Positions 671 to 26,616 of a stretch of DNA of 64,000 bases are shown in pieces; position 1 is the stretch's first letter, and each line of letters begins with the position of its first letter. Source of the stretch: Sphingobium arseniciresistens (lineage in GTDB: Bacteria > Pseudomonadota > Alphaproteobacteria > Sphingomonadales > Sphingomonadaceae); contig JARFNK010000011.1 of the NCBI GenBank assembly GCA_029167225.1, positions 124,001 to 188,000 on the forward strand, given 5' to 3'. The notes below the pieces were generated by a model that was not told the DNA's origin, did not search any database, and saw only the letters and a list, made by a program, of their open reading frames with translations. A program made the translations under genes and the position numbers.

Positions 671-2516
<1,846 letters not shown>

Positions 2517-9790: not shown

Positions 9791-9809
9791 GAAATTCCGG
9801 TCACGAAAC

Positions 9810-10047
9810 CTACGGTGAGCGGTTCGGCGAGGCGAGGCGGCCCAGATCCGGCTTGACCAGTGCTTCCCGCGCCGCAATCTCGCGCCTTGGTTCCGCGTCG
9901 GCTGCCATTTGTTGCTTTAGCGGAAACAAGGTTCCGTCGAAGAACGCCGGCTCCAGCCCGAACCGCGCGGCAAAACGGCTCCACATTGCCAGCGGAAGAT
10001 GTCGCAGTTGATGACATTGAAGGCCTCATCATCCACCACAATATCAG
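9810..10047 (-). pseudogene. Remnant of an extended SDR (PRISE-like) reductase gene
   Basis: Reading the minus strand from 10047 gives VVDDEAFNVINCDIFRWQ, a C-terminal part of the progesterone 5-beta-reductase/iridoid synthase-like SDRs. A few nt are then missing, and a shifted frame from 9986 gives MWSRFAARFGLEPAFFDG and REIAAREALVKPDLGRLAS before a stop at 9810. In family proteins these two pieces are continuous (FRW-x2-MW). The Rossmann N-terminal part and the extreme C-terminus are gone. The remnant abuts the truncated HdeD gene, so a deletion joined the two. Confidence 0.6.
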
Positions 10048-11615: not shown

Positions 11616-11944
11616 CTGTTAACTCCTCTAGATTGGACAGAGCTTGCGCAATGCGCGCCTACCGAGCCGGCCATTGCCTTCCCCACTGAGGTTCACCTTC
11701 TAAAAAGCGCCGGATATCTTTTTGATATGCATTAGTGGCAGCAACAGCACGAAGGTGGACGGCCCATAAGAATCTATTACGAATGCCGCTCTTGCGACCA
11801 TGATTGCACAATACCGAACATCCAGAATCTCGAATCATCGCACGAGATGAAGCAACCCTCGACAGCGCTTCCACGCACAGGGTCATTTGATCCGGTCATC
11901 GGGGACCTCCATGAAATTGAAATCGGGCGATGCTGTATTCTTAA
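11616..11944. other. Intergenic stretch, no gene seen
   Basis: I see no coding pattern, repeat array or clear terminator. The first 20 bases carry the ribosome binding site of the DUF2059 gene on the minus strand. Confidence 0.4.
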
Positions 11945-12094
11945 TTATTTCGACGCCAAACGGTATAGTTCTTTGCCCAGTCCAGTGTGGAATTTTGCTA
12001 AGTGAGTTCTGTCGGGGCCCGACTGGGTGACACCATCTCCTATGATGTATCCCTTGCGCACATACTCCGAAACTGCCGCCCGTTCGCCAGTCAT
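11945..12094 (-). CDS. Possible 49-residue protein coupled to the mla operon
   Basis: A short ORF whose ATG overlaps the stop of the PqiC-like gene by 4 nt (ATGA), the same spacing used by nearly every upstream gene in this operon. It reads MTGERAAVSEYVRKGYIIGD, then a polar stretch, and ends GKELYRLASK. It has no signal peptide or membrane helix and I do not recognise it. The overlap is the main support; a chance ORF of this length is quite possible. Confidence 0.35.
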   Translation of the reverse strand: MTGERAAVSEYVRKGYIIGDGVTQSGPDRTHLAKFHTGLGKELYRLASK

Positions 12095-12756
12095 TGCGAC
12101 CCGGCGGATGCGGCGCGTGATGGCGTCTGAACCGCCGTCGACGACCAGTCGACGATGTCGGCTGCGAAACGCACAACCGCGCTGTCGAAGGCGGCAACAA
12201 TGGCCGCTTTGCCGTTAGCGGCGGCGGTCTCCTCGGCCGAAAAACCGCTGGCCTCCATGACTCGACGGTTTGCGGGATCGACAAGTTCCGCGATCCCGGA
12301 CACGAGGATCACGGGGGGATCGTCCTTTGACCCATCGGGCGCATACCGAGCCTCGAATCTGTCGACTTCAATCCGCAACACCATGCCTTGGGTCGAACGT
12401 TCCTGTGGAGAGCCCAGCCGGAGGCCAGGCGCCCGCCCGGCGAACTGGCGCGTCAGGGTCTGTGTGAAGAGATCCGGGGCAGGCGCGGCCCAGCGGGCGT
12501 CCTTGATATAGAGGACGCTGTCGCCACGAGCCGTCAATATACGATCGCCCTCGATTTCTGGCGCGAATCTTACGCGGGACAGCGAAAGGGTAATCGGGTT
12601 GGTACGGCGAGCAGCAGTCTGCACATCTTCTCGTTCGGGAACTCCGAAACGATACAGATTGTCAGGTTTGCCGCCGCCCAGCATGGCGCTGCATGCCGCA
12701 AGGGGCATGAGCATCGCAAGAATGCAGCATCCGCGAACGCGGTGAGTCTGTGTCAT
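12091..12756 (-). CDS. ABC-type transport auxiliary lipoprotein (PqiC/MlaD-partner type)
   Basis: A 221-residue outer-membrane or periplasmic lipoprotein with lipobox LAAC at about residue 22. The mature domain has the ABC_trans_aux features: NLYRFGVPE near the start, SLSRVRFAPEIEGDRILTA, and a LRIEVDRFEARYA strand. Such lipoproteins partner MCE transport systems (PqiC in PqiAB, and the fused partners in Mce loci). It overlaps mlaD by 4 nt and closes the mlaEFD set, which supports a role in phospholipid movement across the envelope. Confidence 0.82.
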   Translation of the reverse strand: MTQTHRVRGCCILAMLMPLAACSAMLGGGKPDNLYRFGVPEREDVQTAARRTNPITLSLSRVRFAPEIEGDRILTARGDSVLYIKDARWAAPAPDLFTQTLTRQFAGRAPGLRLGSPQERSTQGMVLRIEVDRFEARYAPDGSKDDPPVILVSGIAELVDPANRRVMEASGFSAEETAAANGKAAIVAAFDSAVVRFAADIVDWSSTAVQTPSRAASAGSQ

Positions 12757-13688
12757 TGAGGTAGCTCCAGTTCCCTGCCACTATCCTTGCCGATTGCCTG
12801 CCGCGGGTTCTGCCGGATCTGGCGGATCAGGCCGTTGAGCGAATCCGCAGTCTCCTGCAGGCTTTGCATGGTAGCGTTGACGGTCGGCAACGTGCGTGAT
12901 CCGATCGCGTCGGTCTGTCGGCCGATTTCGGCGATCGTCACGCGCGTTTCGGCGATGGCGGCCTTGAGTTCTTTCGCTGCGGCTGAGACCTCTGCAACCG
13001 TATCGCGGCCATCACCGTCGACGATCGTCCGCACCGACGCCGCCGTCTGTTCTATATCATCGGCCGCGCGATCGAGCTTGGCGAGGGTCGAGGCTGCATG
13101 TCCGAACATCGCGCGGTTGGCGGCAAGCTCGCCTGTGGTGAGTTTCAGATCCTGGACCATTGCACTCATTGCATCGATATTGCGGTCGGACAGAAGCCTG
13201 TTCACCCTCTGGAGCGCTTCACTTGCATTCTGCACGACCTGGCCTCCGCCCTGCAGCAGGGAGGAGAGGGCGTTAGGCTTGCTCTGGATGATGGGACGTC
13301 TCTTGTTGCTCGCCTTGCGCAGCAGCGGCCTGGCCGGCGTTCCCGCGCTGATCTGGACGATGGAGACGCCCGATATGCCCTGCGTCTCGGTCGATGCGAG
13401 GGAATCGACCCTGACGGGCGTACCGTGTGTCAGAACGACGTCTGTTATCACGCGATTGGGATCCTGTTCATCGAGCCGGATGCGTTCGATCTGGCCGACC
13501 TTGATGCCGTTGAACTGCACTTCGGCGCCGACGCTCAACCCCCGCACCGGTCCATGGAAAACGACACGATAGGGATCGTCGGATCCTCCGAACCGGCTCC
13601 CTCCCAGCCAGACCACGAAAACGATCGCAGCGACCAGCAGCAGGGTCGAGAGAATGCCCACCAGGGCGTAGCTTGCATGGCGTTCCAT
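12753..13688 (-). CDS. mlaD: MlaD-family MCE protein
   Basis: A 311-residue periplasmic substrate-binding part of a phospholipid ABC transporter. An N-terminal helix (YALVGILSTLLLVAAIVFVVWLGG) anchors it. The MCE domain follows (YRVVFHGPVRGLSVGAEVQFNGIKVGQIERIRL, with the family G-L-x2-G-x2-V-x-x-x-G-I-x-V-G pattern). A long helical C-terminal tail (about residues 150-300) is typical of alphaproteobacterial MlaD and probably forms the hexamer channel. Start and stop overlap mlaF and the lipoprotein gene. Confidence 0.85.
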   Translation of the reverse strand: MERHASYALVGILSTLLLVAAIVFVVWLGGSRFGGSDDPYRVVFHGPVRGLSVGAEVQFNGIKVGQIERIRLDEQDPNRVITDVVLTHGTPVRVDSLASTETQGISGVSIVQISAGTPARPLLRKASNKRRPIIQSKPNALSSLLQGGGQVVQNASEALQRVNRLLSDRNIDAMSAMVQDLKLTTGELAANRAMFGHAASTLAKLDRAADDIEQTAASVRTIVDGDGRDTVAEVSAAAKELKAAIAETRVTIAEIGRQTDAIGSRTLPTVNATMQSLQETADSLNGLIRQIRQNPRQAIGKDSGRELELPQ

Positions 13689-14470
13689 CAGCGATCTTTC
13701 TTGGCGTCATGCGCCGCGCGCCCGCGCGGCCCCAGGAAATAGCTCCTGATCCAGGGGTGGTCCGATCGTTCCAGCTCACTGACCGGCGCCAGCGCGACGA
13801 CCTTCCGGTCAGCCAGGACGGCGACGCGGTCGCAAATGGCGTAGAGCGTGTCGAGATCGTGGGTGATGATGAACACGGTGAGACCGAGCGCGTCGCGCAG
13901 CGTGCTGACGAGTCCATCAAATTCGCTTGCGCCGATCGGGTCGAGGCCGGCGGTGGGTTCGTCCAGGAACAGGATCGCTGGATCGAGCGCCAGTGCTCGC
14001 GCGACGCCGGCGCGCTTGCGCATTCCGCCGGAAAGTTCGGACGGCCTGAGCGCGGCAGCGGTGGCCGGAAGTCCTGCCAGCCGGATCTTGAGGCGCGCGA
14101 TCTCGGCCGCCAGCGGCAGGGGCAGACCGGTATGCTCGATCAGGGGCGCCTCGACATTTTCCTGGACGGTGAGGAACGAGAAGAGCGCGCCCTGCTGGAA
14201 CATGACGCCCACATGTCGGCCCACCCATGTCTGCGCATCGTCCTGCGCGATGTTCCGGCCGAGGATCTCGACGGTGCCGCCGTCCGGCTGCTTGAGCCCG
14301 AGGATGGTGTTGAGCAACACGGATTTGCCCGAACCCGAGCCGCCCACGACGCCCAGTATCTCGCCGCGCCGAACCTCGAGATCGAGATCGTCGTGGATGA
14401 CCTTCTGCCCGAAGGCCGTGCGCAGACCCTGTACGCGAATGGGCGGAATGTCCTGGGCGTGCGCGCTCAC
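13688..14470 (-). CDS. mlaF: MlaF-type ABC transporter ATPase
   Basis: A 260-residue ATPase with Walker A GGSGSGKSVLLNTI, signature LSGGMRKRAGVARALA and Walker B AILFLDEPTAGLDP, then the switch His in FIITHDLDT. It energises the MlaE permease for phospholipid transport. I chose the GTG start at 14470 because it overlaps the mlaE stop (GTGA) and gives the usual N-terminus (IRVQGLRTAFGQKVIHDDLD). A longer frame from 14605 would lie inside mlaE. Confidence 0.87.
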   Translation of the reverse strand: MSAHAQDIPPIRVQGLRTAFGQKVIHDDLDLEVRRGEILGVVGGSGSGKSVLLNTILGLKQPDGGTVEILGRNIAQDDAQTWVGRHVGVMFQQGALFSFLTVQENVEAPLIEHTGLPLPLAAEIARLKIRLAGLPATAAALRPSELSGGMRKRAGVARALALDPAILFLDEPTAGLDPIGASEFDGLVSTLRDALGLTVFIITHDLDTLYAICDRVAVLADRKVVALAPVSELERSDHPWIRSYFLGPRGRAAHDAKKDR

Positions 14471-15576
14471 AGGTCGAGCGCCATGAAGATCACGGCGAAG
14501 ACCGCGTCGAACATGATGATCATGAAGATCGCCTGGACCACGGCCGAGGTGACATGATGACCCAGGCTCTGGACGTCGCCACCCACCATCAGGCCATGGC
14601 GGCACCCCGAAGCTGCGATGACGATCGCCAGGAAAGGCGCCTTGCTCATGCCGATCCAGAAATGCTTGACGCTGACCGTCTCGAGGGTCCGCTGGACGAA
14701 AAAGACGGGATTGATGTCGATCGTCACCCAGCTCACAAGCATGCCGCCCACAAGTCCGCCGATATCGGCGAAGAAGGTCATCAGCGGCATCATCAGGATC
14801 GCGGCAAGCACACGCGGGACGACGAGCGCATCGAACCGGTCGATGCTCATTACCTGCATGGCGTCAGTTTCCTGGTTCATCCGCATCGAGCCGAGCTGGG
14901 CAGCAAAGGCCGATGCCGATCGGCCGGCAAGGAGGATCGCGGTGATCACGACGCCGAACTCGCGCAGGATCGCCACGCCGACGAGCTGCACAGTGAATAC
15001 CTCGACACCAAGTGTCGTCAGGAGATTGGTGCCGACGAGCGCGATCACCGCACCAATGAAGAAGGTCATGATGAACACGATCGGCAGCGCGTTGATACCG
15101 GCATCCTGCATCATAGCGACCAGGGGCGTGAACCGCAGCCGCCGGGGATGGCGAAGCGTCTTGCCTGCGGCGACGATCAGATGACCGGAGAAAATCTGCA
15201 TCGCATAGGCGTCGGAGGCGATCGCGGCGACCTGTCTGCCGAAGCGTTCGAAGAAGGCGATCAGCCCGGTCTGGCGCGCCGGAGATGCCGGATCTTCTTC
15301 CATCAAGGGTTCGACGAGCCCGGCGAGCCGCTTGAGGTCGTCCCGACCTGACGAACCATAATCATAGCTGCCCTTCATGGCACCCACGAGGACGAAGGTC
15401 CCGGCTGTGTCGATGCTGCCGAGCCTGCTCGTCTCAAGGCGATCGGCGCGGATGTCCCCGAGCGCCGCGTGCAGCCGCTCGGACAGGTCACCCATTTCGA
15501 GCGCAGTCCAGTCGCCGATGGCGTGGAGCGCGGAGCCGTCCTGCGTCTCCTCGATCCGAAAATCCGAAGCCGTCAT
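14467..15576 (-). CDS. mlaE: MlaE-type permease with N-terminal STAS-like domain
   Basis: A 369-residue inner-membrane permease. Residues about 1-110 look like a degenerate STAS domain (IDTAGTFVLVGAM), as found in many alphaproteobacterial MlaE proteins. The permease part has the family motifs GINALPIVFIMTFFIGAVIAL, REFGVVITAILLAGRSASAFAAQLG and MRMNQETDAMQVMSID. Start and stop each overlap a neighbour by 4 nt, placing it between pldA and mlaF. Confidence 0.87.
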   Translation of the reverse strand: MTASDFRIEETQDGSALHAIGDWTALEMGDLSERLHAALGDIRADRLETSRLGSIDTAGTFVLVGAMKGSYDYGSSGRDDLKRLAGLVEPLMEEDPASPARQTGLIAFFERFGRQVAAIASDAYAMQIFSGHLIVAAGKTLRHPRRLRFTPLVAMMQDAGINALPIVFIMTFFIGAVIALVGTNLLTTLGVEVFTVQLVGVAILREFGVVITAILLAGRSASAFAAQLGSMRMNQETDAMQVMSIDRFDALVVPRVLAAILMMPLMTFFADIGGLVGGMLVSWVTIDINPVFFVQRTLETVSVKHFWIGMSKAPFLAIVIAASGCRHGLMVGGDVQSLGHHVTSAVVQAIFMIIMFDAVFAVIFMALDL

Positions 15577-16796
15577 CGCACGAGCGCCACGCCGATGCGG
15601 AAGCGGGTCATGCGGCGATCATAGTCGAGCAAATTCTCGCCATAGCCGATGAAGCTTTGGCCGAAGAGATAGAAGTCTGGTCCGCCGCCAAGAATTCGGG
15701 ACAGGGGGTAGGAAATGTCCGCGTTGAACGCGCCTTTGCCGCTGCCGAAATTGAACCGGGTGGAGGTGGAGAGGCGCAGTCCGTGATCCTCCCCAACCTC
15801 CATAAAAAGGCCTGTGTTGCCGCGATAATGCGCAATGTCCGGATTGTCCGACTTGTCGCCGACGAACAGGGACAGCCTCGGCGCGATCGAAAGCCGGACG
15901 TCGCCCCCGAGAGGGACTGCGGCCATCGGCGCCAGATAGATGCTGTTGATGCTGCGGGAAGCCGCGCCGTCCCTGCCGTTCGACTCGTGCCGAATGCCGC
16001 CTTGGGCGCTCAGCGAGATACCGCTGGCGAGCGTCGCTGACGGTGTCTGGTAGAAGAATTCGGGCTGATAATCGATATTGCGGAACGGCGAGGATTGCGC
16101 GCCCAGATCCCAGAACATACGCTGGGTGTAAGCAAAATACAGTCCGTCCCGCCAGGAACGCGACAGGCCTTCCGCGCGGCGCCTTCCGAACAGCTGATAT
16201 TTGAAGCTGAACTGGATGCGCGCCTCGCTGTTGGTGCCCGGACCATAGACCGCATAGATGGGCTCATAGGCCGAGAGGTTGGCGATAAAGGCATTGCCTG
16301 CCGACCGGTCTGATGGCGGCGGCGCTGCCGTCTTTGCCTCGCCTACCGGTTCCCAAGGCGTCGGCTGAGTGGCAGCCAGTTGCGGTGCCACCGTCTCCGG
16401 CCGCATCGCTATCCCGGTCGGCCGCACATTCCATGCGGGAATGGAGATGTCCGCGCCGTTGAGTGCCTGGTCGAGGTGGGCGGTGGTCCGATAACGCGCG
16501 CGCAGGAAACCACCGGAAGGAATGGTCAGGGTGTCGGGCAGATCAGACGCGCGATCAAGCCACAGGGTTTGCGTTTGACCCGCATGCTCGACCCTGGCTT
16601 CGACGCGGTCGGGCAAGGCAAAGGGCTGCGGTTCGTTGCTTTCGTTCAGTAGACGCAAATCAACCCATATGGCGCCATCCTGATCCCTCTCGCCCGCATC
16701 TCGGATGAGCACGTCAATGGTCGGAGCTGCATGTGCGGGCGGCGCAAAGAACAGCGCGGTGCCTGCCAGTGCCCACCGTCGGGAAGGCGCCGTCAT
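15573..16796 (-). CDS. pldA: Outer-membrane phospholipase A1 (OMPLA)
   Basis: A 407-residue exported protein with signal peptide ending AHA. An unusual N-terminal beta-rich region (about residues 25-165) precedes a PldA barrel. The barrel has NPxYxxYG-like PIYAVYGPG, FQ-type strands, and the catalytic HESNGRDG, where His and Ser match the His142/Ser144 pair of E. coli PldA (H-x-S-x-G). The barrel ends RIGVALVR. PldA removes phospholipids that reach the outer leaflet of the outer membrane. Here it is translationally coupled to mlaEFD, whose products deal with the same lipids. Confidence 0.87.
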   Translation of the reverse strand: MTAPSRRWALAGTALFFAPPAHAAPTIDVLIRDAGERDQDGAIWVDLRLLNESNEPQPFALPDRVEARVEHAGQTQTLWLDRASDLPDTLTIPSGGFLRARYRTTAHLDQALNGADISIPAWNVRPTGIAMRPETVAPQLAATQPTPWEPVGEAKTAAPPPSDRSAGNAFIANLSAYEPIYAVYGPGTNSEARIQFSFKYQLFGRRRAEGLSRSWRDGLYFAYTQRMFWDLGAQSSPFRNIDYQPEFFYQTPSATLASGISLSAQGGIRHESNGRDGAASRSINSIYLAPMAAVPLGGDVRLSIAPRLSLFVGDKSDNPDIAHYRGNTGLFMEVGEDHGLRLSTSTRFNFGSGKGAFNADISYPLSRILGGGPDFYLFGQSFIGYGENLLDYDRRMTRFRIGVALVR

Positions 16797-17566
16797 GCGA
16801 GCAGATGCTGGCCGCTGTCGACCGGAATGATTGTACCCGTAATCCGCTTTGCAGCGTCGCTGACGAGAAAGGCGGCGAGCGCACCGACGTCTTCGATGTC
16901 GACCAACTGGCCCCGCGGAACCTGGGACGCCGCGCGCTCCAGCAACGCGTCGAAACGGTCGATCCCGCTTGCCGCGCGCGTTGCGATCGGGCCGGGCGAT
17001 ATGGCGTGCGCGCGGATACCCTTGGCGCCAAGTTCCGCCGCAACATAGCGCGTCGCGCTTTCGAGTGCGGCCTTGACCGGCCCCATCAGATTATAGTGCT
17101 CGACGACGCGCTCGGATCCATAGAAGGTCACGCAGAGCAGGCATCCGCCCTCGGTCATCAGCGGTTCGGCGAGTTTCGCCATGCGCAGGAAGCTGTGGCA
17201 GGAGACATCCATCGCCACGGCAAAGCCCTCTGGAGACGAGTCGATGACGCGTCCGTGCAAATCCTCCCTTGGTGCGAACGCGATGGAATGGAGCAGGAAA
17301 TCCAGCCCGCCCCATTTCTGCTTCACCTCCTCGAACAACGCCTCAAGCTGGCCAGGAACGCGAACATCGCAGGGCGCGATCCATTCTGCGCCAAGGCGCT
17401 CCGCGACAGGCTCGACCCAGCCTTTCGCCTTGTCATTGAGGTAGGTAGCCGCGAGCCGTGCACCACATTGTGCGAACGCAGCCGCACAACCGGCCGCAAT
17501 GCTCTTTTCATTGGCAATGCCTACGACGAGGCCGCGCTTGCCTTCCAGATTCACCAGCGGCCTCAT
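16793..17566 (-). CDS. fabI: FabI-type enoyl-ACP reductase
   Basis: A 257-residue SDR with FabI motifs: GIANEKSIA near residue 16, CDVRVPGQ, LHSIAFAP, and catalytic Tyr149, Tyr158 and Lys165 (Y-x6-K in YNLMGPVKAALES), spaced as in E. coli FabI (146/156/163). It reduces enoyl-ACP with NAD(P)H in fatty acid synthesis. Its place between ackA and pldA suggests an accessory copy tied to acyl-CoA, PHA or lipid turnover rather than the housekeeping enzyme. That is inference. Confidence 0.83.
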   Translation of the reverse strand: MRPLVNLEGKRGLVVGIANEKSIAAGCAAAFAQCGARLAATYLNDKAKGWVEPVAERLGAEWIAPCDVRVPGQLEALFEEVKQKWGGLDFLLHSIAFAPREDLHGRVIDSSPEGFAVAMDVSCHSFLRMAKLAEPLMTEGGCLLCVTFYGSERVVEHYNLMGPVKAALESATRYVAAELGAKGIRAHAISPGPIATRAASGIDRFDALLERAASQVPRGQLVDIEDVGALAAFLVSDAAKRITGTIIPVDSGQHLLA

Positions 17567-18753
17567 TCTGCCTTCTCCACGATGCTCAGAGTGTGCAATG
17601 CGATCATGCGTTCCTCGTCGGTCGGAATGACGTAAGCCTTGATCCGGCTGTCGGGCAGGCTGATCAGAAGACGGTCTCCGGCATTGGCGATCTCATCGAT
17701 TTCCAATCCCAGCCATTCGAGCCTGCGCGCGATGCGGCTGCGCATGTCCGCATCATTCTCGCCGATCCCGGCGGTAAAGACGATGCCGTCGAGCCCGCCC
17801 AGCGAGGAGGCGAGCGCGCCGGCCTCCCTGCCGGCGCGCCAGGCGAACAGCGCCATTGCCTCTTCCGCTTGTGGCGCGCCGGATGCGGCGAGCGTGCGCA
17901 TGTCGCTCGATATGCCAGAAACGCCGAGCAGCCCCGATTGCTTGTAGAGCAGTTCTTCGACTTCGGCCGCGCTCCTGCCCATCTGGGTTTGCAGATGCAG
18001 CACCGCGCCCGGATCGAGACTGCCGCAGCGCGTTCCCATCATCAGCCCGTCGAGCGCGGTGAATCCCATGGTGGTGTCGATGCTTTGTCCGGCCTTCATA
18101 GCGCAGAGGCTGGCGCCGTTGCCAAGATGCGCGGCGATCACCCGGCCCGACGCAAGCTCGGGATCGATTTCGGACAGGCGGCGGGCGATATATTCATAAG
18201 ACAGTCCGTGGAAACCATAACGGCGGACGCCCTGATCGTGCAGCGCGCGTGGGATTGCGAAGCGCGACGCCAGAACCGGTTTGTCGTGGTGGAAGGCGGT
18301 GTCGAAGCACGCCACCTGCGGCAGGTCGGGACGAAGCTTCGCGATGGCGTGAATGGCGGCAAGGTTGTGAGGCTGGTGAAGGGGTGCCAGCGGGCAAAGC
18401 GCCTCCAGCGCGTCCAGCAGTTCGGGTTCGATCAGCCTGGGCGCGGCAAATTGGGTGCCGCCATGAACGACCCGGTGTCCGATCGCGATGATCTCCCGGC
18501 CCTCCAGCGGATGCTCGGCAGCCCAGGAGAAAAGGTCAGCCAACAGGTCGGCATGGCTCAGCGACGCGCCTTCCGGCCAGTTCCGTTCGAGCAGTATCGC
18601 GCCATCGACCGATTTGGCCTTCAGGTACGGCGCGATGCCGATCTTCTCGATCTTGCCGCCGGCCGAGAACTGAAGCTCGCCCTGCGTATCGAGTACGAAG
18701 AGCGAGAACTTGATGCTGGAGGAGCCCGAGTTGAGGCTGACGACCGCCTTCAT
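17563..18753 (-). CDS. ackA: Acetate kinase
   Basis: A 396-residue ASKHA-fold kinase. It has VVSLNSGSSSIKFSLF at the N-terminus, IGHRVVHGG, DTAFH (the family catalytic DTAFH), RRYGFHGLSYEY, AHLGNGASL, DTTMGFTALDGLMMGTRCGSLDP and FTAGIGEND. It interconverts acetyl phosphate and acetate with ATP formation. It overlaps the phosphotransacetylase gene upstream, so the two steps acetyl-CoA to acetyl-P to acetate are made together. Length is normal. Confidence 0.93.
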   Translation of the reverse strand: MKAVVSLNSGSSSIKFSLFVLDTQGELQFSAGGKIEKIGIAPYLKAKSVDGAILLERNWPEGASLSHADLLADLFSWAAEHPLEGREIIAIGHRVVHGGTQFAAPRLIEPELLDALEALCPLAPLHQPHNLAAIHAIAKLRPDLPQVACFDTAFHHDKPVLASRFAIPRALHDQGVRRYGFHGLSYEYIARRLSEIDPELASGRVIAAHLGNGASLCAMKAGQSIDTTMGFTALDGLMMGTRCGSLDPGAVLHLQTQMGRSAAEVEELLYKQSGLLGVSGISSDMRTLAASGAPQAEEAMALFAWRAGREAGALASSLGGLDGIVFTAGIGENDADMRSRIARRLEWLGLEIDEIANAGDRLLISLPDSRIKAYVIPTDEERMIALHTLSIVEKAE

Positions 18754-20174
18754 GCCTGCGCGCTTTCAGGAAGACCTGGCGCTGCCTTGGTCGCCGCCCG
18801 GGCCATCAGCACTGCCACGGCACAGGAGGCGAGGCGCGTGCGCAGACTGTCGGCGCGGCTCGTAAGGATGATCGGCACGCGCGCCCCCAGTACGATGCCC
18901 GCTGCGTCCGCTCCGCCTAGGAAGGTGAGCTGCTTGGCGAGCATGTTGCCTGCTTCGAGATTGGGGACGACCAGGATTTCTGCCTTGCCGGCGACCGGCG
19001 AGACGATGCCCTTCTCCTTGGCTGCCGCTTCGCTGATCGCATTGTCGAAGGCGAGGGGACCATCGAGCAGGCCGCCGGTGATCTGCCCCCGATCGGCCAT
19101 CTTGCACAGGGCTGCCGCGTCGAGGGTGGAAGGCATGTCGGGATTGACAGTCTCTACCGCTGAAAGAATCGCGACCTTGGGCTCGGCGATGCCGATCACA
19201 TGGGCAAGATCGATGGCATTGCGAATGATGTCGGCCTTGTCGTTAAGAGTTGGCGCGATGTTGATCGCCGCATCGGTGATGATCAGCGGCGTCGGATGGT
19301 CCGGCACATCCATGACATAGGCATGGCTGATCCTGCGCTCGGTTCTGAGGCCCGTTGCGGAGGGAACGACCGCGCCCATCAGTTCGTCAGTATGAAGCGA
19401 GCCTTTCATGAGCAGCCTTGCTTCGCCCGAGCGGATCAGCGCGACGGCTTTTGCGGCCGCGTCATGGCTGTGGTCGGCATTGATCAGGCGGAAGCCCGAG
19501 ATATCCTTGCCTGCTTCCTGCGCCGCCTTTCGGATCCTCCCTTCGGGGCCGACAAGGATGGGCGCGATCAGCTTCGCCTCGGCCGCCTCGACGACCGCCG
19601 AAATGGCTGCGGCGCTGCATGGATGGGCAACGGCGGTGCTCTCGGGTACGCCATTCGACGTCAACTCGATCAGCCGCCGATAACCGTCATGATCGCGGAT
19701 CTGAACCTCAGGGAGCGCGGTGCGGGGACGGCGAACCTTCTCGGATGGTGCCTTCACCTCGGCCTGACCCGAGATCACGACTTCGCCATTCTGATTGACG
19801 CAGCGGCAATCGAATAGAACGATGTGATGCTCCGCCCGTTTCTCAGCAACTGTCACCGATGCGGTGATGGTGTCGCCCAGACCCACCGGATGTGCGAAGC
19901 GCAGCGACTGGCTGAGATAGATGGCGCCCGGCCCAGGCAATTCGGTTCCCAGCACGGCGGAGATGAGCCCACCGCCCCACATGCCATGCGCGATGACCCG
20001 CCGGAACAGGTCGGTCGCGGCATAGTCCGCGTCGAGATGCGCCGGATTGACGTCGCCCGACACGAGCGCGAAGAGTTGGATATCTCGCTCACCCAGAGTA
20101 CGTACGATGCTCGCCGTTTCACCGATTTCGATTTCGTCGAACGTGCGGTTCTCGATCATGCCATCGTCTGTCAT
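18750..20174 (-). CDS. Bifunctional MaoC-like hydratase/phosphate acyltransferase
   Basis: A 474-residue fusion. Residues about 1-145 form a MaoC hot-dog domain with the hydratase motif (GDVNPAHLDADYAATDLFRRVIAHGMWGG; catalytic Asp/His expected here). Residues about 155-465 are a Pta/Ptb-type acyltransferase (LIELTSNGVPESTAVAHP, MKGSLHTDELMGAVV, ITDAAINIAPTL). The first part would hydrate (R)-enoyl-CoA, the second makes acyl phosphate. This fusion is known beside ackA and phaC in proteobacteria. It starts 3 nt after phaC and overlaps ackA. Confidence 0.88.
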   Translation of the reverse strand: MTDDGMIENRTFDEIEIGETASIVRTLGERDIQLFALVSGDVNPAHLDADYAATDLFRRVIAHGMWGGGLISAVLGTELPGPGAIYLSQSLRFAHPVGLGDTITASVTVAEKRAEHHIVLFDCRCVNQNGEVVISGQAEVKAPSEKVRRPRTALPEVQIRDHDGYRRLIELTSNGVPESTAVAHPCSAAAISAVVEAAEAKLIAPILVGPEGRIRKAAQEAGKDISGFRLINADHSHDAAAKAVALIRSGEARLLMKGSLHTDELMGAVVPSATGLRTERRISHAYVMDVPDHPTPLIITDAAINIAPTLNDKADIIRNAIDLAHVIGIAEPKVAILSAVETVNPDMPSTLDAAALCKMADRGQITGGLLDGPLAFDNAISEAAAKEKGIVSPVAGKAEILVVPNLEAGNMLAKQLTFLGGADAAGIVLGARVPIILTSRADSLRTRLASCAVAVLMARAATKAAPGLPESAQA

Positions 20175-20177
20175 GGC

Positions 20178-21935
20178 TCAGCGCTCCAGCACATAGTGGC
20201 CGGGCGCATCCGCGATGGGGGCATAACCCTTGTCGGGTGCGCCCAGGGGCGGGGGAGCGACCGGCGCGCCGGATTGGCGGGAAAGCCATTCCGCCCATTC
20301 GATCCACCAGCTGCCCTGCTTGGGCTCGGCGTGCTCTTCCCACTCCTCCGGATCATAGGTAAGACCATCGGCTTCCCGGGTCAGCACCTTGAAGCGGCGA
20401 CCTTTGTGGCCGGGCTCGGAAACGATGCCGGCATTGTGACCGCCACTCGTCAGAACGAAAGTGATTTCCGCATCGGTCAGAAGATGGATCTTGTGGACCG
20501 ACCGCCAGGGCGCGACATGGTCGCGCTCGGTACCGACCACGAACAGGGGCTTGCGGATCGCGGAGAGCGCAATGCTCCTGCCGCCGGCCTTGTATTTGCC
20601 CTCGGCGAGATCGTCGTCTAGATACAGGCGCCGCAGATACTGGCTGTGCATGGCATAGGGCATGCGCGTGCCGTCGGCGTTCCACGCCATGAGGTCGTTC
20701 AGCGATTCCCGCTCGCCCATGAGATACGTGCCCAGCACGCGCGACCAGACAAGGTCGTTGGACTTCAGGATCTGGAATGCGCCGCCCATCTGGCTGCCGT
20801 CGAGATAGCCACGGCTCCACATCATCTTTTCAAGCAGATCGAGCTGTCCCTCGTCGATGAAGAGGCCAAGCTCGCCCGGTTCGCTGAACTCTGTCTGGGT
20901 CGCCAGAAGCGTGGCGCTGGCAATGCGCTCGTCGCCGTCGCGCGCCATCGTGGCGAGGGCGATCGAGAGCAGGGTACCGCCTATGCAGTAGCCCACTGCA
21001 TGGATGGACGATGCGCCCGTTATCGCCGTGATCGCATCGAGCGCCGCCATCGGCCCCATCAGCCGATACGCCTCCATGTCGAGATCGCGATCCTCGGTTC
21101 CCGGATTGTGCCAGGAGATCATGAAGACGGTGTAGCCCTGGCTGGTCAGCCAATTGACCATCGAGTTTTCGGGCGAGAGGTCGAGGATGTAGTATTTCAT
21201 GATCCAGGCCGGAACGATCAGGATCGGTTCGGGCCGGACCTTGTCGGTCGTTGGTTCATATTGGATCAGTTCGATGAGCCGGTTGCGATAGACGACCTTG
21301 CCCTTTGCCGTGGCGACCGTGTCGCCGACCCGGAAATCCTCGACACCGACGGGGGGAAGGCCTCGCACGAGATGCTGCATGTCCTCCACGAGATGCTGGA
21401 AGCCGTCGACCAGGCACTTGCCCCCGGTTTCGACGATCCGCTGCTGAAGCAGGGGGTTGGTGGCCAGAAAATTGGTCGGCGCGACCATGTCAAGGATCTG
21501 CCGCGCGGTGAACTGGACCATATCCTCATAATGGCTGTTCACGCCGCCCACGCCAGTCGTGGCGGCATGCCACCATTGCTGCTGGAGGAGGAATGCCTGC
21601 GAGAGGATATTGAAAGGCGGTTTCTGCCAGGCCGAATCGGAGAAACGCCGATCCTGCGGAAGCGGCTCGATAGCGAGCCCCGCGTTGCTGTCGGATGCGC
21701 TTCGCGCCGCATAATCGAATAGACGCATATGCTTGCGGCCCATTTTCGCGGCCAGTTGCAACTGTTTTCCCGGCGAGAGGGCGAGGTGCAGCGCCCAGTT
21801 CGAGAAGGCCTCGACCAGGGTTGCGGGCGACAAGCCCAGCGTCACCTGTGCGATCGCGCCGCCCGCAGCATTGTCGAGCGTCTCGGCAATCCCGTCGAGC
21901 GGGTCGGGAGGCGATGTTATGATGTCAGCGCTCAT
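20178..21935 (-). CDS. phaC: Class I poly(3-hydroxyalkanoate) synthase
   Basis: A 585-residue synthase. The catalytic lipase-like box is GYCIGGTLL, with the nucleophile Cys. The N-terminal domain includes FNILSQAFLLQQQWW, then PTNFLATNPLLQQRIVETGG and the alpha/beta core PILIVPAWIMKYYILDLSP. The conserved Asp and His (ERDHVAPW and GGHNAGIV) complete the triad. It polymerises 3-hydroxyacyl-CoA into storage granules. It lies downstream of phaB, phaA and lptB and 3 nt before the maoC-pta gene. Confidence 0.93.
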   Translation of the reverse strand: MSADIITSPPDPLDGIAETLDNAAGGAIAQVTLGLSPATLVEAFSNWALHLALSPGKQLQLAAKMGRKHMRLFDYAARSASDSNAGLAIEPLPQDRRFSDSAWQKPPFNILSQAFLLQQQWWHAATTGVGGVNSHYEDMVQFTARQILDMVAPTNFLATNPLLQQRIVETGGKCLVDGFQHLVEDMQHLVRGLPPVGVEDFRVGDTVATAKGKVVYRNRLIELIQYEPTTDKVRPEPILIVPAWIMKYYILDLSPENSMVNWLTSQGYTVFMISWHNPGTEDRDLDMEAYRLMGPMAALDAITAITGASSIHAVGYCIGGTLLSIALATMARDGDERIASATLLATQTEFSEPGELGLFIDEGQLDLLEKMMWSRGYLDGSQMGGAFQILKSNDLVWSRVLGTYLMGERESLNDLMAWNADGTRMPYAMHSQYLRRLYLDDDLAEGKYKAGGRSIALSAIRKPLFVVGTERDHVAPWRSVHKIHLLTDAEITFVLTSGGHNAGIVSEPGHKGRRFKVLTREADGLTYDPEEWEEHAEPKQGSWWIEWAEWLSRQSGAPVAPPPLGAPDKGYAPIADAPGHYVLER

Positions 21936-22004
21936 GATGGATCCTTATGTGCGAGATAATCTCAAGATCAGTGAATGTTTGCCAATCTGCCGGTTCGGTT
22001 GAAA

Positions 22005-22829
22005 TCATCCCTCGTAATCCTCGCCAAGATAGAGTCGCCGCACGTCAGGATCGTGAAGGACCGCCTGCGGCGCGCCGGCAAACAGTAGCTTGCCGGCATG
22101 GATGACATAGGCCCGGTCGACGAGTTCGAGCATCTCGTGGACATTGTGGTCGGTAATGAGGATGGCCACGCCGCGCGCCTTGAGATCCCGGACCATCGCC
22201 TTGATGTCGGCGATCGACATGGGGTCGATGCCAGCAAAGGGCTCATCGAGCAGAATGACCTTCGGCTCGGCACCCATGGCCCGCGCGATCTCGCACCGGC
22301 GGCGTTCGCCCCCGGAGAGAGCAAGCGCCGACAATGCGCGCAGATGCGTGATGTTGAATTCGGCCAGCAACGCATCCAGCCGTCTGCGGATGATATCGGG
22401 ATCGCGTACGCGCAGTTCGAGCACCGCACGGATATTCTCCTCGACGCTCATACCCCGAAAGATCGAGGCCTCCTGCGGAAGATAGCCAAGGCCGCGTCTG
22501 CCGCGCCCATCCATCGTCAGGGATGTCACATCCTCTCCGCCCAGCAGGATCCGCCCTCCGTCCAGGGGAATGATTCCCATTATGCCATAGAAACAGATGG
22601 TCTTGCCCGCGCCGTTCGGCCCCAGCAGGCCGACTACCTCGCCCGACCCGACATCGAGAGAGACACTGTCGAGAACCTTGCGAGAGCCGAACGATTTTCC
22701 GATCTGCCGGACCGAGAGCGCAAAAGTGATCGGCTTGGATACCACGCCGCTGTCCGGCCACACCGCATCGGCATCACGCGCGCAGCCTGATCCTGACCCG
22801 GCGTCAAGCGGTGGAGCCTCTTCGAACAC
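22005..22829 (-). CDS. lptB: LptB-like ABC transporter ATPase
   Basis: A 274-residue ATPase with Walker A GPNGAGKTICFYGIMGI, LGYLPQEASIFRGMSVEENI, signature LSGGERRRCEIARAM, Walker B VILLDEPFAGIDPMSI and switch His ITDHNVHE, all strongly LptB-like (LPS export ATPase). It has about 30 extra N-terminal residues before ITFALSVRQIGKSFG; an internal start such as GTG is possible. It sits between phaA and phaC, with no lptC, lptA or other lpt gene nearby. It may be a second LptB, or an ATPase recruited to another envelope transporter. Confidence 0.8.
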   Translation of the reverse strand: MFEEAPPLDAGSGSGCARDADAVWPDSGVVSKPITFALSVRQIGKSFGSRKVLDSVSLDVGSGEVVGLLGPNGAGKTICFYGIMGIIPLDGGRILLGGEDVTSLTMDGRGRRGLGYLPQEASIFRGMSVEENIRAVLELRVRDPDIIRRRLDALLAEFNITHLRALSALALSGGERRRCEIARAMGAEPKVILLDEPFAGIDPMSIADIKAMVRDLKARGVAILITDHNVHEMLELVDRAYVIHAGKLLFAGAPQAVLHDPDVRRLYLGEDYEG

Positions 22830-22890
22830 CCTTACACCACCGGCTGGAACAGACGCGGCTCGGGAGCTTGCCGTGGATCACGCGCCGGCG

Positions 22891-24072
22891 TCATAAGGCC
22901 TCCACGGCAAGAGCGACGCCCTGACCGCCGCCGATGCACAGGGTGACGAGGCCGCGCTTGAGATTGTCGCGCTTCATCGCGTGCAGCAGGCGGGTGGTGA
23001 GTACCGCGCCGGTGGCGCCAATCGGATGGCCGTGAGCGATGGCGCCGCCCTCGACATTGACGATCTCCTCCGCGAGCCCCAGTTCGCGCGTGACCGCGAT
23101 GGCGATGGCGGCGAACGCCTCGTTGATCTCGACACGATCGAGATCGGCGACCGACCAGCCCGCCCGTTCCAGCGCCTGGCGGACGGCGGGAACCGGGCCG
23201 AGGCCGAACAGGGCGGGCGCCACCGCGCCGACGCCGAAGGCGACCAGACGCCCGAGTGGAGTCACGCCGTTGCGGCCGGCCCAGTCCTCGCTGGCGACGA
23301 TCATCGCTGCGGCGCCGCTGTTGAGGCCGGGTGCGTTGCCCGCCGAGATCGTGCCCTCCGGGCGGAAAGCGGGCTTCAGGCGCGCCAGGCTTTCGAGGCT
23401 CGTATCGGGCCGGTTCTGCTCGTCCCTGCCGAAAATGATCGGGCCCTTACGCGAAGGGATTTCGACCGCGACGATCTCTTCCTCGAAACGGCCGTCGGCC
23501 TGGGCTGTGCTGAAATTCTGCTGGGAACGGACCGCCCAGGCATCCTGCGCATCGCGCGTAATCTGGAACTGGTTGACCAGATCCTCGGTGACCCAGCCGG
23601 AATGCTGGTTGCAGAAGGCATCGTTGAGACCGTCATGCAGCATGGCGTCGACGAGCTTGCCGTCACCCATGCGGTAGCCCCAGCGGCCTTTCTCGATGAG
23701 GTAAGGCGCCTGGTCCATATTCTCCATGCCCCCCGCCACGACGGCGTGGCTGAAGCCAAGCATGATCTCCTGCGCGGCCGACGCGATTGCCTGCGCGCCC
23801 GAGCCGCAGACGCGGTTCACGGTCAGGGCCGGTACGCTGTCGGGAAGCTTGGCGCTAATTGCCGCCTGACGCGCCGGGTTCATCTTCGCCCCGGCCTGGA
23901 CGACCTGGCCCATGACCACTGCATCGATGCTCTCGACGCCGACACCCGCGCGCCTGACCGTCTCGGCGATCGCGATGCTGCCGAGCTCCGGAGCCGTCAT
24001 GTCCTTGAGGGTTCCGCCATAGGCGCCGATCGGGGTTCGGACGGGCGCGCAGAGAACGACGTTGCTGGTCAT
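22891..24072 (-). CDS. phaA: Acetyl-CoA acetyltransferase (beta-ketothiolase)
   Basis: A 393-residue thiolase. The acylated Cys lies in NRVCGSGAQAIASA near residue 88. The C-terminal motifs NEAFAAIAIA, GGAIAHGHPIGATGA and the proton-donor Cys in LVTLCIGGGQGVAL are all present. It condenses two acetyl-CoA into acetoacetyl-CoA for PHB. phaB lies 22 bp upstream. A more general thiolase role cannot be excluded, but the phaB/phaC context supports PhaA. Confidence 0.9.
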   Translation of the reverse strand: MTSNVVLCAPVRTPIGAYGGTLKDMTAPELGSIAIAETVRRAGVGVESIDAVVMGQVVQAGAKMNPARQAAISAKLPDSVPALTVNRVCGSGAQAIASAAQEIMLGFSHAVVAGGMENMDQAPYLIEKGRWGYRMGDGKLVDAMLHDGLNDAFCNQHSGWVTEDLVNQFQITRDAQDAWAVRSQQNFSTAQADGRFEEEIVAVEIPSRKGPIIFGRDEQNRPDTSLESLARLKPAFRPEGTISAGNAPGLNSGAAAMIVASEDWAGRNGVTPLGRLVAFGVGAVAPALFGLGPVPAVRQALERAGWSVADLDRVEINEAFAAIAIAVTRELGLAEEIVNVEGGAIAHGHPIGATGAVLTTRLLHAMKRDNLKRGLVTLCIGGGQGVALAVEAL

Positions 24073-24094
24073 AGGAAATCCTTTCCTTGGGCCC

Positions 24095-24817
24095 TCAGGC
24101 CAGATATTTGCCGCCGTTGACCGACAGGGTGGCGCCGGTCACGAAACCTGCCTCATCCTCGACCAGGAAGAGCACGGCCCGTGCGATCTCCGCCGGCGTG
24201 CCGAGCCGCCCGACCGGGACCCCGGCAAGTACGGCCTTCAGCGCCTCCTCGGGCACCGCGGCGACCATGCCGGTGTCGGTGTAGCCGGGCGCGATCGCAT
24301 TGGCAGTGATGTTGCGGGAGGCACCTTCCAGCGCAAGCGCCTTGGTGAAGCCGATCACGCCGGCTTTCGCGGCGGCGTAGTTGGTTTGGCCGAACTGGCC
24401 GGAGAGGCCATTGACCGAACTGATATTGACGATCCGTCCGAAACGGCGTTCGCGCATGCCCTCGATCACGGCGCGGCACATGTTGAAGCATCCGCCAAGA
24501 TCCACGTCGATGACGCTTCGCCATTGCTCCTCGGTCATCTTGTGCAGTGTCCCGTCGCGGGTGATGCCCGCGTTATTGACGAGGATGTCGACCGGACCGA
24601 TGTCCGAGACAATCTTTGCCACGCCTTCCTGGCTCGCGGTGAAGTCGGCCACATTCCAGCTGTAGACCGGAATCGACGTCTCCCTGACGAAATGCTCGGC
24701 TACCTCGTCATTGCCATAATAGTTGGCGGCGACGAGGTAGCCCTTCTCCTTGAGGAGCTTGGCCGTCGCGGCGCCTATTCCGCTGACGCCGCCGGTGACA
24801 AGCGCGATTCTGGGCAT
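24095..24817 (-). CDS. phaB: Acetoacetyl-CoA reductase (first copy)
   Basis: A 240-residue SDR with ALVTGGVSGIGAATA at the N-terminus, VNNAGITRDG, the catalytic Ser-Tyr-Lys set (NISSVNGLSGQFGQTNYAAAK) and the C-terminal VNGGKYLA. PhaB reduces acetoacetyl-CoA to (R)-3-hydroxybutyryl-CoA. It is the first gene of the long minus-strand operon. A second phaB at 26.6-27.3 kb is roughly 60% alike by eye. Confidence 0.9.
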   Translation of the reverse strand: MPRIALVTGGVSGIGAATAKLLKEKGYLVAANYYGNDEVAEHFVRETSIPVYSWNVADFTASQEGVAKIVSDIGPVDILVNNAGITRDGTLHKMTEEQWRSVIDVDLGGCFNMCRAVIEGMRERRFGRIVNISSVNGLSGQFGQTNYAAAKAGVIGFTKALALEGASRNITANAIAPGYTDTGMVAAVPEEALKAVLAGVPVGRLGTPAEIARAVLFLVEDEAGFVTGATLSVNGGKYLA

Positions 24818-24851
24818 GAATATTGTCCTTCAGGCTGAAAATGGGAGCGCA

Positions 24852-25079
24852 TCATTGCGCGAGGCGACCGCTATCGACCGGATAGCAGCCGCCGAAAATG
24901 AACGAGTCGCGATCAGATCGCTGGGCGGCGACGAGTGCCGCGATCTCCTCAGGCTGCCTTAGCCGGGAGATGGCATGCGCGCGATTATGTCGGGCGGTGG
25001 ATGCGCATCGGTCGAGGCGTCCACCGCTTCCCGAAGCAGCGCCCGGGATGAAAATGACCTTGTCCTGGATATCAGGCAT
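24852..25079 (-). pseudogene. SDR gene with its middle deleted
   Basis: The 75-residue frame starts like an SDR (DKVIFIPGAASGSG, family VIFITGAASGIG). After a short unrelated run it goes straight to an SDR C-terminus (ISRLRQPEEIAALV, then FGGCYPVDSGRLAQ). The middle of a normal ~250-residue protein, with the catalytic Tyr and Lys, is gone. Several glycines or threonines of the motifs have also changed. It is a dead remnant in front of phaB. Confidence 0.6.
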
Positions 25080-25758
25080 ATGACTTCTCCGGCCTTGAGC
25101 AGTTACCAGCCGAAAATCGGGGCCGGACAAAAGGTGCGGAGACACTCCCGGCCGGGGGCGTCACCGCGCGCCATTTCACGCAACCTCTCCTGCCGCTGCC
25201 ATTGTCGGCGGTCGCAACGGCTTTCGCCGTGAAGCCGGTCATCCGCCATCCGGAACTATACTTATAAGTTTCGTATTCCCGACGTCAACGGCGTCCGCAG
25301 ATCACGCCATGCATCACGGCGGCGGCCGTCTTGCCCTCGGGTTGGGGCATCCGGACTTTGCGCTCTATCTGTGCTGGCATCACGCCCGGTAGCGACTGTC
25401 ATTCCCAGGATGACGATGCCGACGGCAACCAGCATGGCCTCCATTATGCCGCAGCGCACCAAGCGGGACGCGGCATTCCAGGCGATCTCGACGACGGTCG
25501 TCCATGGCTTGCAGGCGAAGCCTTTGCGTCGCCAACATCATGAATGTCCTTCCGCACACGGCCCTGCATGAGTTCGTACCTGCCGACCGCGCCGCATCCG
25601 CCCATCCGCGACCACCTCCTCAGCATAGCCGTTAGAACGGCCCTCAGCGGGTCACAGTGGTCACCGATCCGGGATTGCAACCCAAGCTCGGTTGATGCTT
25701 ATTTCTCATGCCCGGAGTTCAGCTGGCCCGCAGGCGCGGGGAATGACCGAAGCCCTAC
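25080..25758. other. Gene-poor stretch with possible remnant
   Basis: No firm gene. On the minus strand around 25262-25540 a frame without a clear start reads EIAWNAASRLVRCGIMEAM and then a hydrophobic helix (LVAVGIVILGMTVA), which may be the end of a small membrane protein. A 9-bp motif TATACTTAT at 25257 occurs inverted at 26536, in the tetR/phaB2 gap. Confidence 0.3.
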
Positions 25759-26454
25759 TCAGGTCCCACACCCATCCTGTTGCGGGAAAGATAGAATAGC
25801 CCGGAAGATAAAGTCTATCGCCTGCTCCAGATAGGCGGTTTTTGCCTGCGGAGTATCTGGCAGGTCCTTGCGGATGAGGATCCGCTGGCGTGGTGCGGTG
25901 ACCAGAGCGTCGAAAATAAACACCGCGAGAAAGGGCGGGTCGAAGGAGCCGGCATGATCCGGTCCGGCCGCTTCCTCAATCAATGTCCGGATCAGTGCAA
26001 TTCCCGGATTGATCCCGAGTAAAGTCTGGATGTCGATATCGTCGATATTCTGATCTCGAACCCAGTATGCAAGCTTCTCAAGCCCGATGATTTCCGGCTT
26101 GAGGCAAAGGTCGAGCATCTTTTGCGCGGTTCGCAGCAAGCGCTCGCGCGGGCATCCGGAGCGCATCGTCGCGACGATGGGTTTCAGGCGATCGTCGATC
26201 GCGTACTGCATCACTGCGACCAGCAGCCCCTTCTTCGAACCGTAGCGCGCATAAAGGGTGCGCTTGGACACGTTCGCCGCTGCTGCGACATCATCCATGC
26301 TCGTTCCTTCGGGGCCGTCGGCGACGAAACGCGCCAATGCGATTTCGAGAATATGCTCGCCGAGGCGTGCGGCAACGTCCTGGGTGGGCCTGCCGCCTTG
26401 GGGGTCGCGCGGTGGGAGGCCGCGCTTGCGTGGATTTGTTCTCGATGTCGTCAC
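25759..26454 (-). CDS. TetR family transcriptional regulator
   Basis: A repressor-type protein of about 231 residues. The N-terminal TetR helix-turn-helix reads ILEIALARFVADGPEGTSMD, then VAAAANVSKRTLYARYGSKKGL. The C-terminal ligand domain is of the TetR_C/AefR-like kind. The GTG at 26454 is a likely start (VTTSRTNPRKRGLPPRD); no ATG gives a better one. It diverges from the second phaB, so it probably controls that gene and itself through the 160-bp gap. A ligand is unknown. Confidence 0.85.
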   Translation of the reverse strand: MTTSRTNPRKRGLPPRDPQGGRPTQDVAARLGEHILEIALARFVADGPEGTSMDDVAAAANVSKRTLYARYGSKKGLLVAVMQYAIDDRLKPIVATMRSGCPRERLLRTAQKMLDLCLKPEIIGLEKLAYWVRDQNIDDIDIQTLLGINPGIALIRTLIEEAAGPDHAGSFDPPFLAVFIFDALVTAPRQRILIRKDLPDTPQAKTAYLEQAIDFIFRAILSFPQQDGCGT

Positions 26455-26616
26455 GTTATCGTCATTAGACCTAATTTCGGCGCGCCTCAAAGATCGCTCT
26501 TGATCCTCGAGCGAGCAATGGCAATAACAAAACCCATAAGTATACATACGCATTGTCCGGAGAGGCTGCGCGATGGAGTCGTCGCGCTGAAGCCTGAGAG
26601 AAGGGAACCGGATGAT
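26455..26616. promoter_or_regulatory. Divergent tetR/phaB2 control region
   Basis: The gap must hold both promoters. CATAAGTATACATACG at 26535 includes TAAGTATA, which also occurs before the universal stress gene (about 6994) and, inverted, at 25257 upstream of phaB1. It could be a shared operator or a -10-like element; this is inferred from repetition only. Confidence 0.35.

Follow-up and report, generated by a model that had tools for sequence, protein, structure and literature searches.

This analysis concerns a window of 64,000 nt from Sphingobium arseniciresistens (GenBank assembly GCA_029167225.1, 6.6 Mb in 120 contigs; contig JARFNK010000011.1 of 193,002 bases, positions 124,001 to 188,000, or G000:C12:124001-188000 in our numbering of genomes, contigs and loci as G, C and L), and in particular the gene run phaB-phaA-lptB-phaC-maoC/pta-ackA-fabI-pldA-mlaE-mlaF-mlaD-pqiC, which extends on its minus strand from the phaB start at 24817 to the pqiC stop at 12091. 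The best explanation that we can offer, and to which we give an even chance, is that the run is a module that lets cells survive when respiratory energy is scarce, perhaps because oxygen is limiting, and in which storage and acetate metabolism are joined to the upkeep of outer-membrane (OM) lipids. As part of that explanation, and just as evenly poised, the known phaC-maoC/pta-ackA-fabI cluster would here exist in an accessory form that moves horizontally and is now equipped with pldA, mlaEFD-pqiC and an extra lptB. We favor this explanation because of the overlaps between neighboring genes, their recurrence in relatives, purifying selection, the retention of pldA behind a PhaC leader, and the FixLJ genes beside several relatives’ copies. 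Mechanistically, the run would work as one unit of translation and, presumably, of transcription: PhaA, PhaB and PhaC would bank acetyl-CoA and reducing power as polyhydroxybutyrate (PHB), Pta-AckA would draw ATP from acetyl-CoA, and the coordinately produced PldA and Mla-type transporter would destroy or retrieve phospholipid straying to the outer leaflet once envelope synthesis stops, thereby sparing lipid and ATP from loss. Here, we infer control by oxygen, a role in energy limitation, and also what the transporter carries and in which direction. A link between OM integrity and energy status has already been drawn in Vibrio cholerae, where the passages cited report that Mla sustains ATP as well as the culturability and regrowth of starved, stationary-phase cells (PMC11796348).

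An earlier sequence-only reading of this stretch had named the twelve genes in this order and on one strand, and both open reading frames (ORFs) and Pfam/NCBIfam profile matches bear out order and families (Table 1); of the span it gave, 11945 to 24817, the right edge is correct, and the left edge lies about 150 nt beyond the pqiC stop. Its claim that from pta to the last gene each start overlaps the preceding stop by 1-4 nt agrees with the junctions as read from the sequence: ATGA (4 nt) is common to pta/ackA, ackA/fabI, fabI/pldA, pldA/mlaE and mlaD/pqiC, the mlaF/mlaD junction TGATG has 1 nt in common, and mlaE/mlaF share GTGA (4 nt), given the inferred mlaF start at GTG 14470. Upstream, phaC and pta are spaced by a 3-nt gap, and gaps of 22, 61 and 69 nt separate phaB-phaA, phaA-lptB and lptB-phaC, respectively. 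Since both the order and the overlaps recur in relatives, they go beyond what chance would produce. Homology searches of the genome also located a second phaC (C44), a second mlaE (C66) and a second, presumably canonical lptB (C41, 62% identical to the run’s copy), and therefore the run adds to functions several of which the genome already has; for pldA, the run’s copy is the single match in the whole genome.

Recurrence was assessed in 249 genomes of the family and 94 of the genus, with pldA counted as linked when maoC-pta lies at most 4 kb upstream of it on the same strand, and mlaE when pta lies at most 6 kb upstream. The family sample has 48 pldA places (41 genomes), 13 of them linked (10 genomes), and linkage in the genus amounts to 22 of 60 places (20 genomes). 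Close mlaE homologues, which in the family are those of at least 57% identity (8 of 44 rows), are linked to pta at 4 of 8 family places and 12 of 25 genus places, and at 7 of the latter 25, mlaE follows pldA by no more than 1 kb. The complete order phaC-pta-ackA-fabI-pldA-mlaE-F-D-pqiC was found in nine genomes of both samples, the window’s own and the ones that hold L130-L137 (L005 and L131 being from one strain), which amount to about five distinct versions, as L131/L132/L133 and L134/L135/L137 are near-identical groups. The pldA adjacency, which the sequence-only reading had proposed to look for in sphingomonad genomes, is thus not unique to this one. Among 30 locus rows selected for closeness, phaC-pta is present in 29, 28 of which continue with ackA at a 4-nt overlap (the pDE1 copy, L115, being cut short); with starts chosen by script, the 4-nt overlap recurs in 14 of 16 rows where fabI and pldA adjoin, and in 6 of 10 where pldA and mlaE do. 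Leading in the same direction, phaB-phaA-lptB is found in the window, L115, L134-L137 and L145, with 2,059 nt between this block and phaC in L137. It is divergent from phaC in L005 and L131-L133, so that its inclusion in one run, as originally proposed, stands for the window but describes a separable block. Overall, the run is built of modules around a phaC-pta-ackA core, with fabI, pldA, mla and phaB-phaA-lptB variously present, absent or inverted.

This modularity takes several forms. In L144, mlaEFD-pqiC is followed by pldA and no pha gene lies within its 19.5 kb, and in L002, L116, L146 and L148, where mla is absent, an HdeD-like (DUF308) gene stands 20-140 nt after pldA, as if a different envelope module had replaced mla. 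Horizontal spread fits both the plasmid copies that lack mla in the stretch shown (among them Rhizorhabdus wittichii pDC02 and Novosphingobium resinovorum pSA2) and the maoC-pta relatives, 82-83% identical, that occur in records under the names Hoeflea (a 7-kb contig of a metagenome-assembled genome) and Roseiarcaceae. The run also gives context for the phospholipase A genes found on some sphingomonad plasmids, a subject on which PMC10734547, dealing with such plasmids, has nothing for pldA or mla. Further arrangements were seen in pSRL3 (L118), a 44-kb plasmid with lin genes that carries pldA without pta, in R. dicambivorans p2 (L119), where the mla set lies apart from its own maoC-pta, and in G057, whose six maoC-pta and five pldA places in one genome represent an unusual multiplication of the module.

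We then considered genomes in which pldA has left the cluster. Six genomes carry pta-ackA(-fabI)-mla without pldA therein, and their detached pldA lies some 16-18 kb away in five of them and on another contig in G285. In all six, an N-terminal PhaC remnant (residues 1-83, 34-45% identity) directly precedes the detached pldA, and its stop overlaps the pldA start as ATGA; the six amount to two sequence types, G253, G264, G279 and G285 being near-identical and G057 and G289 identical. Such a remnant was found before none of 17 control pldA genes (L222-L238), drawn from the genus’s 33 remaining pldA places without an adjacent pta. Moreover, the core GCAGTACCGTT of the phaC-type upstream element is kept in G253, G264, G279 and G285 (4/6), and the element scores 34.4 bits in L197 and L221 and 13.5 bits in L219 and L220, the best of the 17 controls reaching 7.0. 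We read the arrangement as loss of the metabolic genes with retention of the leader and its coupled pldA. Tentatively, PldA would then be the most tightly kept partner of the module, coupled to the pha leader even after deletion of the metabolic genes between them. A comparable fossil lies on the window’s own contig, where a PhaC N-terminus continues as a FabI-like C-terminus and an acetyltransferase-like (GNAT-like) gene follows.

All twelve genes are under purifying selection: the ratio of nonsynonymous to synonymous substitution rates (dN/dS) is 0.05-0.19 against the nearest relative, L136, and 0.05-0.27 against L133 and L134. The lptB, phaA and phaB rows for L130 are void, since its lptB is a non-orthologue (31% identity, dN/dS 0.63), its phaA is a fragment only and phaB returned nothing. 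Together with a pairing that occurs in several lineages with exact overlaps, and with a pldA that keeps its coupled PhaC leader after the intervening genes are gone, this selection argues against hitch-hiking, in which the genes would have been packed on plasmids or islands by transposition and deletion, with overlaps reflecting compaction and no functional tie. Hitch-hiking could nevertheless account for modules that swap, invert and decay, for the IS6100 beside the pDE1 copy, for the Tn3 transposase and metal-resistance genes in the same window, for the fact that in the genus 13 of 25 close mlaE homologues are not near pta, and for the mla set of R. dicambivorans p2, which has neither pta nor pldA in the stretch shown. 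On balance, we regard it as rather unlikely.

Joint expression of the run is likely, judging from the conserved overlaps, a conserved block ahead of it and the lack of promoter-like matches from the phaC start onward. This block of 26 nt, found by scanning 6.75 million positions on both strands, is identical in the window, L115, L136 and L145, differs at 3-4 positions in L134, L135 and L137 and at 5 in another ten loci, and stands ahead of an SDR (short-chain dehydrogenase/reductase)-phaB block in the loci inspected (window, L136, L115 and L005). With the preceding TTGAC, it reads as a putative promoter, TTGACG-N16-TATAAG (-35 TTGACG, -10 TATAAG); phaB2 is preceded by weaker matches in the window, L115 and L005, but with 9 mismatches these are at the level of unrelated matches and serve as a lead only. 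Separate promoters dividing the pha and mla parts had been named as a finding that would speak against a single operon, and on the minus strand of the window no promoter-like match was seen between the phaC start and pqiC, in a scan of 11500-26600 that was at chance overall (4 vs. 3.3 for promoters and 10 vs. 9.2 for terminators). The same scan gave a match of 9 of 12 just upstream of phaC (21985-21956), in a stretch not conserved in relatives, and this match qualifies the case for joint expression, as do the spacing before mlaE in some copies (see below) and the separate upstream elements that relatives have for phaB-phaA-lptB and for phaC onward. A second element, TTGC-N5-ATCT-N2-CC-N5-AGTACCGTT, built from five sites, precedes phaC in 13 of 43 rows, with one weak further match in L168 that was not placed; ahead of phaC in the window it was not found.

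The oxygen link, which the sequence-only reading had not included, comes from candidate regulatory sites and from neighboring sensor genes. Across 52 phaC loci, near-identical ones included, TTACGTAA stands at -66/-67 of phaC in 10, and exact FNR boxes (TTGA-N6-TCAA) also precede phaC in 10 (mean of 0.13 and maximum of 2 in mononucleotide shuffles), 8 of these being clusters with a PhaC identity of 59% or less. CTACGTAG occurs at -66 of the fossil on the window’s contig, and TTACGTAG at 6503-6510 in the window, in the gap before receiver-domain and universal stress protein (USP) genes, this last site being without a control. All three resemble the class GTAMGTAG that passages of PMC4999443 give for FixJ from SELEX (systematic evolution of ligands by exponential enrichment), and may be candidate FixJ sites. 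The nearest solved relatives of a PAS kinase encoded beside several copies are FixL proteins, with which the FixL heme-pocket region could be aligned. We take the heme-pocket histidine to have the role that it has in FixL-like kinases. FixL and FixJ-like genes precede phaC in L138-L143, follow pldA directly with a 4-nt overlap in L117, and are present with a receiver gene on the window’s contig (C12:106369-109352). Altogether, an oxygen trigger is likely for some relatives, the link being a good one in part of the group; for the window’s copy it is unproven. Less probable, and put forward tentatively, is that the run is a mobile oxygen-/energy-sensing module hard-wiring OM lipid repair to carbon storage, by making PldA, the Mla-type transporter and an extra LptB in step with the PHB/acetyl-phosphate enzymes. 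It is conceivable, to a similarly modest degree, that a non-growing sphingomonad, with glycosphingolipid and not lipopolysaccharide (LPS) on its surface, would in this way keep its envelope sealed and recover lipid while respiration is off.

Between the FixLJ genes and the run lies an extra ATP-synthase-type operon (window 389-2507; L175 16078-19920, its L175 genes named by eye), with an order resembling that of the N-ATPase. Extra ATP-synthase genes and BI-1 were not found as regular partners in the 40-kb flanks of five other copies, in a scan that excluded the central 20 kb, and one USP gene was identified among the 36 window ORFs given to Pfam. FNR-box matches with up to 2 mismatches number 30 in the window (14.4 expected), none of them ahead of the operon, and they were not used as evidence for it.

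Several findings weigh against our preferred explanation of a survival module. With one mismatch allowed, TTACGTAA is found in 11 of the 52 loci, the shuffles, which were the sole control run, giving 3.8 on average and 10 at most; the exact site, in 10 loci, is confined to few lineages. In the window operon itself, the 350 nt next to phaC and phaB contain no FNR box and no TTACGTAA, and its contig’s FixLJ genes lie about 27 kb beyond the pqiC end. Among five copies on megabase contigs, one has FixL in its 40-kb flanks (in a further one, G253, the gene precedes phaC within the central stretch), and other flank markers are patchy (USP gene at 40% identity or more in 2/5, RbbA in 2/5, metal P-type ATPase in 3/5); control stretches 1 Mb away have none of the flank markers at 40% or more. 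Furthermore, 49 of the 61 pta places of the genus have no mlaE nearby, and in some copies mlaE is set off by an upstream gap of 163-400 nt. Finally, a tree of 24 MlaE rows left the pta-linked rows unresolved relative to a group of six others, and a single clade of the 13 pta-linked rows was weakly rejected (p-AU 0.041); a single origin of pta-linked mla is thereby weakly rejected and left open, an outcome that fits module shuffling as well as shared function.

The core of the run is already known from other bacteria, and the run differs from known clusters by joining in pldA, mla and lptB. Passages on Burkholderia sensu lato describe phaC-phaJ/pta-ackA-fabI clusters with phaC of groups D1/D2 (PMC8231600), and those on Herbaspirillum place phaC2 in an operon with pta-ackA (PMC8222739). 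Those clusters have phaC, fused hydratase-Pta, AckA, FabI and, in many cases, PhaB next to each other; likewise, in the window phaC adjoins a fused hydratase-Pta gene (the 3-nt gap above), directly followed by ackA and fabI. What sets the window’s run apart from the clusters in those passages is that pldA and mlaEFD-pqiC are attached to it by overlaps of 1-4 nt and that lptB stands between phaA and phaC. Portions of the reports on the lxa low-oxygen locus (PMC6127331, PMC9104464) give phbB and a phosphate acetyl/butyryl transferase in an oxygen-responsive setting with universal stress and heat-shock proteins; the locus has a phospholipid-binding BON protein of its own, no pldA or mla is named for it there, and it has six USP genes as compared to one among the scanned window ORFs. 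With E. coli Mla and OMPLA/PldA the run shares the MlaE, MlaF, MlaD and PldA families, but the window operon has a PqiC-like lipoprotein and neither mlaC nor a separate mlaB gene, its NCBIfam scores are below E. coli-type cut-offs, and its mla genes are joined to carbon-storage genes. A joint pha-pta-pldA-mla operon was not found in the open-licence literature searched. Energy storage and maintenance of the envelope tend to be separate fields of study, and an operon that repeatedly joins them offers a direct genetic handle on how the OM of non-growing Gram-negative bacteria is kept intact.

Another comparison raises a different mode of control. Phospholipid remodelling suits low phosphate, and the run might be a PhoB-dependent phosphate-starvation operon in which PldA and Mla strip phospholipid and carbon is stored as PHB. 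The pta-ack-fabI core is indeed shared with the Sinorhizobium meliloti ORF-pta-ack-fabI operon, which is PhoB-controlled (Summers 1999, as cited in PMC8231600), a passage that names no pldA or mla. However, matches in the window to a Pho-box-like pattern are at chance (5 vs. 3.8 expected) with none ahead of the operon, and we consider this alternative improbable.

The sequence-only reading had tied storage to the recycling of OM lipids, with acyl chains freed by PldA possibly passing through the CoA pool into polyhydroxyalkanoate (PHA) via MaoC and FabI. Joint expression is likely and the adjacency recurs; the carbon route is possible but unsupported, and we hold it to be very unlikely. MaoC-type hydratases are a possible source of (R)-3-hydroxyacyl-CoA, which would suit the route, but the substrate of FabI is acyl-ACP (acyl carrier protein). 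The run has no fadD or other acyl-CoA synthetase, and clusters with pldA but without fabI exist (L002, L116, L148). Class I PHA synthases are the short-chain kind; the phaC product scores best as this class and stays under the TIGR01838 cut-off (Table 1), being class I-like only. In E. coli, fatty acids freed by PldA do become acyl-CoA, by FadD, acting according to the passages cited as a signal for which beta-oxidation is not needed (PMC5874903).

Regarding the individual proteins, PldA H270 and S272 are invariant and N284 nearly so across 34 homologues; from the alignment, we take these to be the catalytic His-Ser-Asn triad. The top fold match of the predicted PldA structure is E. coli OMPLA, and residues ~27-118 of sphingomonad PldA are modelled as an N-terminal beta domain that OMPLA lacks. 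MlaE, MlaF and MlaD each score above their Pfam cut-offs. No separate mlaB (STAS) gene is present in the run, and the 115-aa N-terminus of MlaE has no Pfam match at E<=1; mlaC and mlaA are absent from the operon, the rest of the genome not having been searched for them. The MlaD structure model was not interpreted, its mean predicted local distance difference test (pLDDT) value being 50.5. The LptB-like protein keeps the family score (TIGR04406) and, in an alignment to solved LptB, the ATPase motifs; LptF, LptG or LptC partners are not in the operon, no search for them elsewhere having been made. The substrate exported through it is left open, because sphingomonads are described, in PMC11165598, with surface sphingolipids in place of LPS.

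Table 1. Features of the run, its surroundings and the fossil on the same contig (window coordinates unless a locus is named).
Feature	Position	Strand	Evidence or remark
phaB, acetoacetyl-CoA reductase (SDR)	24095..24817	-	Pfam PF13561/PF00106; counterpart named phbB in plasmid pDE1
phaA, acetyl-CoA acetyltransferase (thiolase)	22891..24072	-	Pfam PF00108/PF02803
lptB-like ABC ATPase	22005..22829	-	NCBIfam TIGR04406 325 bits, cut-off 240
phaC, class I-like PHA synthase	20178..21935	-	PF07167, PF12551; TIGR01838 552.8 bits, under cut-off 622.65
maoC-pta fusion, enoyl-CoA hydratase/phosphate acetyltransferase	18750..20174	-	NF006045 759 bits, cut-off 282
ackA, acetate/propionate kinase	17563..18753	-	PF00871; TIGR00016 362.8 bits, above cut-off
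fabI, enoyl-ACP reductase	16793..17566	-	NF005717 424.8 bits, above cut-off
pldA, outer-membrane phospholipase A, predicted extra N-terminal beta domain	15573..16796	-	PF02253
mlaE permease, N-terminal extension ~115-120 aa	14467..15576	-	PF02405
mlaF ATPase; inferred start GTG 14470, frame open to 14605	13688..14470	-	PF00005; NF008809 best match, under cut-off
mlaD, MCE-domain protein, long C-terminal part	12753..13688	-	PF02470
pqiC-like ABC_trans_aux lipoprotein	12091..12756	-	PF03886 68 bits, above cut-off; NCBIfam pqiC 23.9 bits, cut-off 200
Conserved promoter-like block ahead of run	25254..25279	-	identical in L115, L136, L145
Remnant of upstream SDR gene (decayed)	24852..25079	-	intact in L136 and L115 (S. 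baderi pDE1)
TetR-family regulator between two pha units	25759..26440	-	PF00440
phaB2	26614-27345	+	family match
Small gene at phasin position	27373-27891	+	no family above cut-off; ‘hypothetical protein’ in pDE1; phasin name unproven
Fossil second copy	L175 (G000:C12:104000-123999) ~7700-8100	-	~2.4 kb from FixL-FixJ-receiver genes

Elsewhere in the window, a DUF308/HdeD-like gene (9362-9877) had suggested a transmissible stress-tolerance locus, a candidate that was dropped as the rest of such a locus is missing. The window also holds a metal-resistance region at 35446-61460, with two P-type ATPases, a CzcA-type pump and a Tn3 transposase.

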